Assembly: GCF_900128475.1 (NCBI RefSeq) | Contig: NZ_LT635837.1 | Span: forward strand, 417,615-481,614 | Direction: 5' to 3' | Source: Mediterranea massiliensis | GTDB lineage: Bacteria > Bacteroidota > Bacteroidia > Bacteroidales > Bacteroidaceae | DNA: 64,000 bases | Shown: piece by piece, positions 12,184-59,660 of the stretch | Position numbering within the stretch: the first letter of the stretch is position 1 | How the letters are laid out: each line of letters opens with the position of its first letter | Notes under the pieces: generated by a model | The model's database searches: none | Told to the model about the DNA's origin: nothing | The model's input: only the letters and a program-made list of their open reading frames with translations | Translations under genes and position numbers: made by a program

Positions 12184-12708
12184 AAAAGCGTTGTTTTAGA
12201 GAAGAAAAACATTTCCCGCCCCGCGACCGCTCTGTCCCGACGGCCTGCAACGCCCTCCGAACTCCGACCGACGGAAGGCTTGACATTTTGACACTTTGTC
12301 GGACAAACGGCCTGAGAATCGTCTGTTTCGGCCCGAAGGAGAGGCCGCCTCCAACGGACGAAGCGCGAAGGGGCTTATCCATTCTCGTACAGCAAGTTAT
12401 CGAAATCCTTACATTTCAACCAGCTGAAAAAAGCCCCGAACGGGCGGCCGCAAAGCCTCATCGAGGACAAAACAATGCTTTCGCCAGAGGAAAACAATGC
12501 TTTTCGGAGCAGAAAACATCCTTTTTTCTCTTCTATTTCATACCACCTTCCGCTACGGAACCCACAACCTGACGGCCGAAAACATACAATGTCCGCGCAA
12601 AACGTCTACTTCCTGCCCCGAAAAACACGGTTTCCGCCCCTCTTTTTCCGCTATTTCCGCCCGAACGAAAAAAGGAGGAGTAAGCGAAAAGGCGCTTTTC
12701 CCCTCCAT
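12184..12708. repeat. Array locus A: 22-bp-period AAAAC..GCTTT dyads in a gene-free stretch
   Basis: The roughly 690 bp between ileS and the flavodoxin gene holds no credible gene. It is built of short dyads in 22-bp steps. Best block: AAAACAATGCTTT at 12469 and at 12491, then AAAACATCCTTTTTT at 12513, with weaker units in register at 12447 and 12425. A pair in another register begins at 12184 (AAAAGCGTTGTTTTA) and 12206. A third block has units at 12577, 12599, 12621 and 12687 (AAAAGGCGCTTTTC), with 12643 and 12665 degenerate. It lies downstream of the flavodoxin stop on the minus strand and upstream of ileS. Confidence 0.65.
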
Positions 12709-17953: not shown

Positions 17954-18056
17954 TAAACTGACAGTTTATCCGTATTAAACTGATAGTTTAAAGCGGTTAA
18001 ACTGATAGTTTAAACGGAGTAAACTGACAGTTTAAAGCCTGTAAACCGAAAGTACA
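17954..18056. repeat. Array locus B: TAAACTGAYAGTTTA every 22 bp
   Basis: Four copies of the 15-bp palindrome TAAACTGAYAGTTTA start at 17954, 17976, 17998 and 18020, exactly 22 bp apart, with unrelated 7-bp spacers (TCCGTAT, AAGCGGT, AACGGAG). A decayed fifth unit (TAAACCGAAAGTACA) sits in register at 18042. The gene-free stretch 17815-18160 also holds a terminator near 18096. The array lies between the GH3 stop codon and the threonine aldolase start, both on the minus strand. Confidence 0.9.
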
Positions 18057-18094
18057 AAGCCTGTGAAGCAAAGCAACGAGACGCCCGCGGTACA

Positions 18095-23503: not shown

Positions 23504-24391
23504 ATGAAAGCATTTGTATTTCCGGGCCAAGGCGCCCAATTCGTAGGAATGGGCAAAGACCTGTACGAGAACTCGGCTTTAGCCAAAGAATTGTTTGAAA
23601 AAGCGAATGATATCCTCGGATATCGCATTACTGATATCATGTTCAACGGCACGGACGAAGACCTCCGTCAGACAAAGGTTACACAGCCTGCCGTATTCCT
23701 CCACTCCGTAATCTCTGCCCTCTGCATGGGCGATGCCTTCCAGCCTGAAATGACTGCCGGACACTCGCTCGGCGAATTCTCGGCCCTGGTTGCTGCCGGT
23801 GCCCTGAGCTTCGAAGATGGCCTGAAACTGGTATATGCACGTGCCATGGCCATGCAAAAGGCTTGCGAAGCCCATCCTTCTACGATGGCCGCCATCATTG
23901 CCCTGCCCGACGAGAAGGTTGAGGAAATCTGCGAGCAGGTAAGCAAGGAAGGTGAAGTTTGTGTCGCTGCCAACTTCAACTGCCCGGGACAGATTGTTAT
24001 CTCCGGTACCATCGAAGGCATCAACAAGGCCTGCGAACTGATGAAGGCTGCCGGTGCCAAGCGTGCCCTGCCGCTGAAGGTGGGCGGTGCTTTCCACTCT
24101 CCGCTGATGAACCCCGCGAAGGTTGAACTGGAAGCTGCCATCAACGCTACCAACTTCCACACGCCGAAGTGCCCCGTTTACCAGAACGTGGATGCCCTGC
24201 CCCACACCGACCCCGCAGAAATCAAGAAGAACCTCGTGGCACAGCTCACGGCTTCCGTACGCTGGACACAGTCTGTAAAGAACATGATTGCCGACGGTGC
24301 TACCGACTTCACCGAATGCGGACCGGGCGCCGTACTGCAGGGCTTGATCAAGAAGATTGACAGCACCGTATCTGCCCACGGTATCGCATAA
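23504..24391 (+). CDS. fabD: Malonyl-CoA:ACP transacylase
   Basis: Loads malonyl units on acyl-carrier protein for fatty-acid synthesis; 295 residues. MKAFVFPGQGAQFVGMGKDLY is the family N terminus and sets the start. The catalytic Ser is in TAGHSLGEFSALVAAG (near 90) and the His in LKVGGAFHSPLMNPAK (near 200). A TACCTTTG -7 element lies at 23443-23450, about 54 bp before the start, with a TTTTG 24 bp upstream of it. A hairpin with T7 closes the gene. The 270-bp gap to xylB shows nothing else I can name. Confidence 0.97.
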   Translation: MKAFVFPGQGAQFVGMGKDLYENSALAKELFEKANDILGYRITDIMFNGTDEDLRQTKVTQPAVFLHSVISALCMGDAFQPEMTAGHSLGEFSALVAAGALSFEDGLKLVYARAMAMQKACEAHPSTMAAIIALPDEKVEEICEQVSKEGEVCVAANFNCPGQIVISGTIEGINKACELMKAAGAKRALPLKVGGAFHSPLMNPAKVELEAAINATNFHTPKCPVYQNVDALPHTDPAEIKKNLVAQLTASVRWTQSVKNMIADGATDFTECGPGAVLQGLIKKIDSTVSAHGIA

Positions 24392-24471: not shown

Positions 24472-25626
24472 ATGAACAAGAAACTGATTCTATGCTGCTG
24501 TGCCGGAGCCGCCATTCTGACAGCCTGCACAGGCAAAAAACAACCGGCATCACCTGCCACCGAGACAGATACCCTCTATATGCTGGTGGGAAGTTATGGC
24601 CCTGCCGACCAGGAAGGCATCAAAGTATATAAATTCAATCAGGAGACTGGCAAAGGACAATACGTAAGCGGCCTGAAAGGCATCTCCAACCCATCTTATC
24701 AGACTGTATCGGTAGACGGTAAGCGAGTATATAGCGTAGGCGAAGACGACGGAGGAACAGCTTGCGCCAATGCACTGACCTTTGACGCCACCACCGGCAT
24801 CTTGACGCTGGTCAACAGCCAACCCACCCAAGGCGCCGCCCCCTGCCACATCGCACTGAGCCCTGAAGAAGACTACGTCGTAACGGCCAACTATAACGGC
24901 AGCAACATCACCCTCTTCCCGCTCGATGCGGAAGGCCGCCTGAAACCAGGAAAAAACATCGGTTTCGACGGTCATGGCGCCGACAAGGAACGCCAGGCCC
25001 AACCGCACCTGCACTTTGTCTATTTCACTCCCGACAACAAATACCTGCTGGCCAACGACCTGGGTACCGACCGCATCCACCGCTTCCCGCTGAACAACCG
25101 GCAGAAAGGCAGCGACACACCGCTGGTGGACGAAAGTAGTGCTTCGGACATCCTCCTGGCTCCCGGTTCCGGCCCACGCCACACCGAGTTCTCCGCCGAC
25201 GGACGGTTTGCTTACTTGATAACAGAGCTCTCCGGCGAAGTAATGGCTTTCACCTATAACGGTGACAGCCTGACATGGATGCAGACCATCCAGGCCGACA
25301 CGCTGGACGCCCGCGGAAGTGCCGATATCCACCTTTCGCCTGACGGCCGCCACCTCTATGCCTCCAACCGCCTGAAAGGCGACGGGCTGGCCATCTTCCA
25401 AATCAACGGAGAAGGCGGCACCCTGACCAAAATCGGTTATCAACCTACCGGCATCCATCCGCGTAATTTCATTATCACACCCAACGGGAAGTATGTACTC
25501 GTGGCCTGCCGCGACACCAACGAAATCCAGGTATTCGCCCGCGATGCCTCGACCGGCCTGCTGACCGACACCGGGCAGAGCATCAAAACCACGAAACCCG
25601 TCTGCTTGAAATTCATCAAGATGTAA
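24472..25626 (+). CDS. Lactonase-family beta-propeller lipoprotein (6-phosphogluconolactonase-like)
   Basis: 384 residues. MNKKLILCCCAGAAILTACTGKK gives a lipobox LTAC, so the protein is exported and lipid-anchored. The rest is a seven-bladed propeller of the YbhE/Pgl lactonase family: LYMLVGSYGPADQEGIKVYKFNQETG, PCHIALSPEEDYVVTANYNGSNITLFPLDAEGRLKP, GSGPRHTEFSADGRFAYLITELSGEV and IHPRNFIITPNGKYVLVACRDTNEIQVFARD. Cytoplasmic relatives hydrolyse 6-phosphogluconolactone; export here suggests another lactone or sugar. It stands alone, with repeat array C behind it. Confidence 0.88.
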   Translation: MNKKLILCCCAGAAILTACTGKKQPASPATETDTLYMLVGSYGPADQEGIKVYKFNQETGKGQYVSGLKGISNPSYQTVSVDGKRVYSVGEDDGGTACANALTFDATTGILTLVNSQPTQGAAPCHIALSPEEDYVVTANYNGSNITLFPLDAEGRLKPGKNIGFDGHGADKERQAQPHLHFVYFTPDNKYLLANDLGTDRIHRFPLNNRQKGSDTPLVDESSASDILLAPGSGPRHTEFSADGRFAYLITELSGEVMAFTYNGDSLTWMQTIQADTLDARGSADIHLSPDGRHLYASNRLKGDGLAIFQINGEGGTLTKIGYQPTGIHPRNFIITPNGKYVLVACRDTNEIQVFARDASTGLLTDTGQSIKTTKPVCLKFIKM

Positions 25627-25696: not shown

Positions 25697-25775
25697 ATGT
25701 TTCAAACATGGCGGCCTTATGTTTCAAACATTCCCCCTTTATGTTTCAAACATAAGCCCCGTAGGGTTGAAACCC
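25697..25775. repeat. Array locus C: ATGTTTCAAACAT every 22 bp
   Basis: Three perfect copies of the 13-bp dyad ATGTTTCAAACAT start at 25697, 25719 and 25741, spaced exactly 22 bp, with spacers of 9 bp that differ. A fourth unit in register at 25763 reads AGGGTTGAAACCC: both arms are changed so that the dyad is kept. The rest of the gene-free stretch 25627-26019 is AT-rich and ends in a TACATTTG -7 element (25980-25987) before the DUF362 gene. Confidence 0.9.
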
Positions 25776-35830: not shown

Positions 35831-35932
35831 CATAGCGCCAGTACTTCCAGCCAAGTACTCCAGTACTTATATGCAAGTACTCGAGTACTCCCAAGCAAGT
35901 ACTGGAGTAATCCTCTGGAAGTACCGACCGAA
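35831..35932. repeat. Array locus D: AAGTACTCSAGTACTT every 22 bp
   Basis: Units at 35853 (AAGTACTCCAGTACTT), 35875 (AAGTACTCGAGTACTC) and 35897 (AAGTACTGGAGTAA) are exactly 22 bp apart. The flanks keep the register: 35831-35846 retains only the right half (CCAGTACTT) and 35919-35926 only the left half (AAGTACC). It lies between the acyl ligase stop and the CMD-cupin gene. A TAACTTTG element (35995-36002) follows as likely promoter of the next gene. Confidence 0.9.
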
Positions 35933-55423: not shown

Positions 55424-55436
55424 GCGGAGAGACAGG
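55424..55436. repeat. Right attachment core (3' end of tRNA-Ser)
   Basis: GCGGAGAGACAGG, same 13 bp as at 40168-40180. It covers the 3' acceptor arm and part of the T arm of the tRNA, so integration leaves the tRNA gene intact. Confidence 0.85.
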
Positions 55437-55509
55437 GATTCGAACCCCGGGTGCCTCGCAGCACAACGGTTTTCAAGACCGCCGCAATCGACCACTCTGC
55501 CACCTCTCC
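55425..55509 (-). tRNA. tRNA-Ser (anticodon UGA)
   Basis: The minus strand folds as an 85-nt class II tRNA: acceptor GGAGAGG with TCTCTCC, anticodon arm CGGTC-TTGAAAA-CCG with anticodon TGA, a variable arm of about 15 nt (TTGTGCTGCGAGGCA region) and T arm GGGGTTCGAATCCC. Discriminator G, as in bacterial serine tRNA. CCA is not fully encoded. It reads TCA serine codons (and by wobble others). It is the integration target of the element. Confidence 0.96.
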
Positions 55510-59550: not shown

Positions 59551-59660
59551 AGCAGAGAAAATCAACATTTTGCCCAGCCTAAACAATCCGTTTACCCAGC
59601 TTAAACAATTCATTTGAGCTGGGAAAACGAATGCTTTAAGCTGGGCAAACAACTGTTGAA
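59551..59660. repeat. Array locus F: AAACnnnnnTTT units every 22 bp with CCCAGCTT/AGCTGGG words
   Basis: Five units start at 59551, 59573, 59595, 59617 and 59639, each 22 bp apart. Unit 2 and 3 open with CCCAGCYT, units 4 and 5 with the opposite word AGCTGGG; all keep AAA at unit positions 9-11 and most keep TTT near 19-21. Because the words invert in the middle, 59595-59611 can pair with 59629-59645 over 15 of 17 bases. The array lies between the convergent serine ammonia-lyase and PepSY-like genes. Confidence 0.82.

Follow-up and report, generated by a model that had tools for sequence, protein, structure and literature searches.

Among the described repeats closest to those of this study are the REP elements, which are located near gene ends, and the BrickBuilt repeats of Porphyromonas gingivalis, a species of the same order as the genome analysed here. 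PMC2817692 and PMC3733652 present the REP and BIME of enterobacteria as dispersed extragenic palindromes, set in regularly spaced groups, and a part of PMC12306157 places REP near gene ends; arrays of the kind reported below are not described in the parts of PMC12306157 and PMC3733652 that were consulted. BrickBuilt, according to PMC4596501, consists of imperfect tandem units of 23 nt at 19 intergenic loci, predicted to form long stem loops, and comes with a leader, a tail and terminal inverted repeats; the number of units ranges from 1 to 22.8 and differs among strains, and no BLASTn match outside the species is reported. A third system, the subclass 2.6 TnpA-REP of Bacteroidetes, appears in a portion of PMC6006769 as Y1 genes flanked by 'atypical secondary structures'. 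Our search of the literature, with most subscription journals and preprints outside its scope, returned no description of such arrays in Bacteroides.

Array C lies at 25697..25775 of the window, i.e. the whole stretch of 64,000 nucleotides that was analysed, and like the other features given here it has no strand assigned. We posit that it is one copy of a dispersed, REP/BIME-like chromosomal intergenic element of about 80-90 bp with four candidate dimer-binding sites, and put the probability of this reading at roughly 0.5. The anatomy of the element, its dispersal, the conservation of its arms relative to the flanks, the lack of covariation between arms, and its place near gene ends and between convergent genes are established observations.

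The end unit of array C

Array C is made of four palindromic units in a 22-bp register. The first three, at 25697..25709, 25719..25731 and 25741..25753, all read ATGTTTCAAACAT, whilst the fourth, at 25763..25775, reads AGGGTTGAAACCC; the 9-bp spacers between them occupy 25710..25718 (GC-rich, and different among copies), 25732..25740 and 25754..25762. The first-pass annotation had these coordinates and sequences right, and unit 4 does stand exactly in register with units 1-3, as it said. The array does show dyad symmetry: in its best dyad 16 of 20 positions are complementary, against 11.0 +/- 1.1 in controls whose 22 columns were permuted alike in all units (n=300), which keeps the periodicity and destroys the dyad. 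None of the 300 controls reaches 16, and the dyad symmetry thus exceeds what periodicity alone would lead us to expect. As for unit 4 itself, it had been claimed that both arms changed in such a way that the pairing was kept. Three of the outer pairs are affected when unit 4 is read on the axis of units 1-3, and the claim holds for pair 2/12 (G-C) but fails for 4/10 (G-A) and 1/13 (A-C); the full pairing of unit 4 (GGGTT with AACCC) is reached only when the axis is moved by half a base pair.

The explanation of the odd unit is family membership. Similarity to the window copy led to 14 places in its own genome (G000), array C among them; they gave 27 match rows, as the element matches on either strand. 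The family is a narrow one, with an exact two-unit C pattern in 4 of 149 genus genomes. The two-unit pattern was also found in 19 stretches, 15 from Candidatus Bacteroides merdavium, three from other Bacteroides assemblies and one on a contig binned as Enterocloster (L106), probably a mis-binned Bacteroides contig. To judge by these nearest matches, the genome of array C is probably a Bacteroides; G132, one of the genomes compared below, appears to be that of Candidatus Bacteroides merdavium, as both yield the same contig place. The alignment comprises 33 distinct copies from five sources (14 from G000, 2 from G023 and 15 from merdavium, with L103 and L106); of the original 35 rows, L107 and L108 were dropped because they duplicate L022 and L103. 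Loci L090-L108 had been found with a pattern requiring two adjacent exact units, and in L013 one base was taken from a 10-nt spacer 1 to hold the register.

The four-unit anatomy is common to all 33 copies, aligned in register. The sequence ATGTTTNAAACAT fills unit 2 in 31 of the 33 and unit 3 in 29, proportions for which the copies from the pattern scan were partly selected. It fills unit 4 in none, a unit that carries GG at left positions 2-3 in 25 copies, CC at right positions 11-12 in 25, and both in 20. The other end of the element is mixed: unit 1 is exactly ATGTTTNAAACAT in 17 of the 33, and either of its halves may be of the GG/CC type (AGGTTT or AAACC). Which end counts as unit 4 is partly a matter of construction, since copies close to symmetric were given whichever orientation best fitted the window copy. 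Because unit 4 is never ATGTTTNAAACAT and has GG and CC on its two sides in 20 of 33 copies, we take it to be no local change but a terminal piece that was inherited, with its dyad axis half a base pair off. The patterns of units 1 and 4 together imply two types of half-site, with the GG/CC type proper to the element's ends; the inner sites of C have ATGTTT half-sites and the end site GGGTT half-sites.

Covariation of the arms among orthologous intergenic regions had been proposed as the check on the compensatory reading, and the outcome went against it. In the alignments of six orthologous pairs (five good and one, L021/L097, weak at 74% identity), arm changes are, by eye, one-sided. In the orthologue of array C itself, L093, unit 4 has two changes, neither of them compensated. 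Across units 1-3 of the 33 copies, change on both sides is seen at one pair only, positions 2/12 of unit 1, where 18 T-A, 3 G-C, 1 G-T, 7 T-C and 4 G-A are consistent with independence (Fisher p = 0.67 for the 33 copies, and 1.0 for the 26 independent copies that remain when L025 and, from every one of the six orthologous pairs, one partner are set aside). Arm pairing within copies is not above pairing between copies for unit 1 (z 0.53) or unit 4 (z 0.36), nor is the pairing of spacers 1 and 3 (z -0.23). When covariation was sought across units and spacers (14 segment pairs in two modes, i.e. 28 tests), the sole excess was that between the left flank and spacer 1 in register, with z 2.9 (4/2000 shuffles); we set it aside because it is one of 28 tests and drops to z 1.0 with small shifts allowed. 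Spacers 1 and 2 pair less than mispaired copies do (z -1.6 and -2.6). A compensatory double change that preserved a local hairpin or dyad in unit 4 is therefore rejected as extremely improbable: unit 4 does pair on its shifted axis, but it deviates from ATGTTTNAAACAT in 33/33 copies, its changes in L093 are unpaired and the arms do not covary. A deviant terminal unit should not be taken as compensatory evolution before the dispersed copies have been checked.

Outside the element, the flanks of the C copies, compared by eye, have nothing in common except among orthologues and in the pair L022 and L025 of G023. These two share ~30 bp of flank on either side, and a longer piece was therefore duplicated in that genome. 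Also in G023, the lactonase gene beside array C and the array itself are both absent between otherwise syntenic neighbours (window 24472-25626, and L151), and a 69-bp stretch of the lactonase gene still matches. In G141, the orthologue of the window gene at 23504-24391 is followed by a 22-bp array from another family (GAATCATTGCCGATGATTCATG; L154:374-491).

Many families in a 21-23-bp register

Array C belongs to a larger class. In twenty 20-kb stretches and the window, 464 kb altogether, the noncoding, non-microsatellite arrays fall at periods 21 (5), 22 (21) and 23 (7), against a total of 3 at the remaining 14 periods between 15 and 31. Merged, these give 32 noncoding arrays, some of which share a family and hence are not independent; the dyad is significant beyond periodicity in 20 of the 32 at 0.05 and in 12 at 0.01, and 12 have no significant dyad. 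The families share the register and not the sequence, as the four further ones within the window illustrate. An array of AAAACAATGCTTTT units at 12469..12525, of period 22, has a dyad that is not significant (p = 0.11). Another 22-bp family, with TAAACTGAYAGTTTA units at 17954..18064, has 9 genome places and is present at the orthologous place in G132; a third, with AGTACTT N6 AAGTACT units at 35838..35924, has 6 genome places; and a fourth, also of 22 bp, with AAAC N5 GTTT units and CCCAGCTT/AAGCTGGG spacers at 59570..59655, has 38 genome match rows, some of them both strands of one place. Three of these four families were looked for genome-wide, and all three are dispersed.

Arrays of period 21-23 with other sequences occur in further genomes of the genus: 6 in 160 kb of G020, 4 in 60 kb of G003, 2 in 40 kb of G011, 1 in 20 kb of G045, 3 in 280 kb of G046 and 1 in 40 kb of G060. 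Three were found in 80 kb of G017, together with 7 at other periods, and none in 60 kb of G016. In 216 kb from other families of the order, sampled in small pieces, we counted one period-23 array and three of other periods, i.e. no excess. A register of 21-23 bp that is common to unrelated families is a clue to a joint machinery of binding or copying. Units may also be gained or lost within it: one orthologous 23-bp array is shorter by exactly 23 bp in G132, and none was detected at that place in G023.

Several related observations were made along the way. In G023, an array resembling window array B lies at L148:4204-4330, and the interval that holds array B (346 bp in the window) is about 4.8 kb there. 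G046 (L224:7057-7125) and G017 (L232:6926-7029) each have, about 3 kb from the Y1 gene and probably at an orthologous place, a 22-bp array that belongs to the same family in both (GTTCCACC..GGTGGAAC). Tandem repeats with 7-bp units (e.g. GATATTT, AATTCTC) recur in the genome of array C (L122, L125, L127, L116 and others). Finally, a 10.7-kb segment (L112:9263-20000 on contig C25 of G000; C13:19635-30350 of G132) is 99% identical between the two species, against about 86% in neighbouring DNA, an alignment that suggests recent transfer.

Half-sites, folds and gene ends

If pairing as such is not what is kept in array C, the half-sites themselves may be. In the five good orthologous pairs (L021/L097 is excluded from these counts), differences number 10/240 in the arms, 3/20 in the dyad centres, 22/135 in the spacers and 143/625 in the 60-bp flanks. 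Without the units used in the pattern search, the arms still differ less than the flanks (5/72 vs 143/625, p = 0.001), and the comparison of arms with spacers reaches only p = 0.08. For the second family (17954-18064), compared via synteny and not by pattern, the figures are 0/48 for arms, 2/12 for centres, 3/55 between units and 29/186 for the flank, and here the spacers are conserved as well. Less changed than their flanks, the half-sites look constrained and, judging from these alignments, appear to be held as sequence; together with the lack of covariation, this makes a dimer site a better fit than a hairpin. The suggestion of selection for the dyad thus survives as a constraint on half-sites and is lost as compensation. 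A homodimer site is the best reading because the arms are conserved while the flanks, and less clearly the dyad centres and spacers, drift.

The reading proposed above also covers how such an element would work. Each palindrome would be the site of a dimeric DNA-binding protein, and four dimers would sit side by side on about one face of the DNA. The bound array may then act at the ends of transcription units as the BIMEs of E. coli supposedly do, by analogy as a roadblock, a supercoiling site or a nucleoid site.

The position of the arrays bears on this proposal, considering that genes were called with a simple, purpose-written hexamer finder and no published caller. Convergent gaps hold 6 of the 32 arrays, against 1.4 expected from random intergenic placement (P = 0.004), divergent gaps 4 against 6.0, '--' gaps 13 against 9.4 and '++' gaps 9 against 15.3; the '++' gaps are under-filled despite the arbitrary strand, and arrays of the same family are not independent in this comparison. 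The 22 codirectional arrays lie on the stop-codon side, at a mean relative position of 0.33 (one outlier clipped) and a median of 68 nt from the stop vs 238 nt from the start. The neighbours of the C copies are unrelated and include a release factor, MutS domains, a rubrerythrin, a MIP channel, a methionine synthase activation domain, an IPP transferase and others (20 of the 25 listed genes were scanned for domains, and 3 of the 20 had no match); in the window, they are the lactonase and a DUF362 protein. An operator array would be looked for at the promoters of related genes; the arrays here are on the stop side and in convergent gaps, and no common function emerged among the 20 of 25 neighbours scanned.

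The main rival of the protein-site explanation is an RNA hairpin: the array would be transcribed at the 3' end of the mRNA, and the long hairpin would protect or terminate transcripts. Besides the place of the arrays on the stop-codon side, two results speak for it that a pure protein-site model does not require. Strong single-stranded folds were obtained for the four families that were folded (z -3.0 to -8.5), and the spacers pair better than shuffled ones: in 26 of 33 copies the fold becomes weaker once the bases within the spacers are shuffled (mean z -1.19). On the other hand, a palindromic period gives good folds trivially, and the stem covariation of a structured RNA was not found among the 33 copies, neither in the arms nor between spacers 1 and 3. 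The window copy has no T-run beside it, as an intrinsic terminator would, and the 9 codirectional C copies are not oriented alike with respect to the upstream gene: 5 lie one way and 4 the other. With Rfam at gathering scores, the window gave no match at array C and only a tRNA at 55425-55509. Weighing these points, we regard the RNA hairpin as rather unlikely.

Intrinsic terminators bear on the same rival. With a crude finder, they were seen before the array or at its edge in 8/32 gene ends with arrays and anywhere within 300 nt in 10/32, about as commonly as in ends without arrays (32/163). Of the 10 ends in which this finder detected one, 8 had it ahead of the array or at its margin, a point against the hairpin. 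That the arrays replace terminators was considered and rejected, as these frequencies (8/32 vs 32/163) give no sign of it.

Could such arrays be mere by-products of mutation? Quasi-palindrome correction is known in bacteria, and template switching together with slippage at quasi-palindromes might build and repair arrays without selection, so that paired changes would be corrections. The orthologous array that differs by exactly one 23-bp unit would agree with this, but the paired changes it predicts were not observed, and it leaves the single register of unrelated families, the conservation of the arms and the position at gene ends unexplained. We consider it very unlikely.

Spread of the arrays and comparison with known systems

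Under the protein-site reading, some machinery would have copied the entire array as a block. Neither a clean empty site nor a target duplication was found, so that block copying is deduced from the shared anatomy. In 26 C copies, no target-site duplication is seen (the best excess, 7 vs 2.5, consists of dinucleotides at arbitrary offsets). At C copy L019, the intergenic region is unalignable in G132 and G023 and no C unit core was found in the region of either genome; G132 has an array of another family there, 650-810 bp past the last aligned base. This 23-bp array (GGGTATCTGATACTCTTCGTCAA; L157:884-1047) sits in the gap that matches the gap of L019 in G000.

A selfish element like a MITE or REPIN, moved by a transposase and without function for the cell, would also account for dispersed copies with a common anatomy and a narrow range. 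The Y1 (RAYT) transposase, PF01797, has a match in 7 of 29 genus genomes, 6 of them above the cut-off. Four (G011, G046, G017 and G060) combine a Y1 match with arrays of the class. No match was found in the genome of array C (G000), nor in G132, G023, G141, G003, G020 and G045, all of which carry arrays of the class. At 3 of the 11 Y1 loci of the genus (L208, L209 and L210, in G046, G017 and G062), tandem arrays do adjoin the Y1 gene, which favours a selfish element, but those of L208 and L209 have a period of 18 or 20, that of L210 is weak and purine-rich (22/26), and none of the three has a dyad (P 0.42-1.0). They are possibly the 'atypical' REP repeats of Bacteroidetes. None of the 11 Y1 loci is directly flanked by a palindromic 21-23-bp array; at L217, a palindromic 22-bp array lies about 1.1 kb from the Y1 match with one gene between. 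Two of the Y1-side motifs, sought in exact form in G046 (280 kb) and G017 (80 kb), turned up once or never in the stretches sampled; palindromic 22-bp arrays are present there. We found no match for C in phages, for two other families in plasmids or for two patterns in viral contigs.

In G023, a 23-bp palindromic array adjoins a stretch that has an inverted repeat at its two ends (TAGTCCTGTCACACCAA on one side, the complement on the other), and the whole is repeated across the genome (L167-L186), at no fewer than 36 places, with 40 of 166 candidates scored; 19 copies were aligned, with L171 excluded. This composite is BrickBuilt-like in its build, and it is a point in favour of a selfish element. 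Against this stand the lack of a Y1 match in seven genomes with arrays, the different make-up of the Y1-side arrays, the absence of target duplication and clean empty site, and the phage, plasmid and viral searches. A selfish origin thus seems doubtful to us, and mobilisation of the C family by RAYT/REPIN in this genome was rejected, given that it has no Y1 match and that the Y1-side arrays of the genus belong to another class.

A wider extension of the protein-site reading, which we offer as a quite improbable speculation, is that Bacteroides carry fast-evolving chromosomal DNA addresses. These palindrome arrays (by extrapolation some hundreds in this genome) would form many families on one 21-23-bp ruler at the ends of transcription units, and for every family there would be a separate dimeric protein, itself diversifying, that reads the arrays and ensures their spread, directly or via the array; the arrays would hold the position of BIMEs without a REP tag or transposase.

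How, then, do the arrays compare with the systems described? Going by its description, BrickBuilt resembles them in that both have imperfect tandem units of 22-23 nt in intergenic DNA. C differs in having four units with nothing conserved outside them and, by eye, no terminal inverted repeats in the flanks, and its 26 copies lack the target-site duplication of a BrickBuilt-type MITE; a BrickBuilt-like composite was seen only for the 23-bp family of G023. With the subclass 2.6 TnpA-REP, the arrays have in common their occurrence in Bacteroidetes, structured repeats and further copies in the genome. Those repeats lie beside a Y1 gene, whereas none does here, and the arrays at the Y1 genes of the genus (3/11 loci) have other periods and no dyad.

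The arrays also resemble REP and BIME: C consists of dispersed extragenic palindromes in many copies (14 places, with 32 arrays of the class, 20 of them with a dyad), and the class lies at the 3' ends of genes (68 nt from the stop vs 238 nt from the start). The arrays here differ in being short palindromes of 13-15 bp in a 21-23 bp register, often four together, with many families per genome. Nor is there a conserved tag, as GTAG is found in 8/33 and CGTC in 4/33 copies, anywhere in the element and on either strand; a further difference, also from REPIN/RAYT, is that this genome gave no match to a Y1 transposase. Should the class be borne out, one of the dominant genera of the gut has, in Bacteroides, a REP-like repeat system lacking the known REP transposase. 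With its one narrow register, many sequences, narrow families and no known mobiliser, the class is an unusual one, which we regard as a variant of the dispersed extragenic palindromes.
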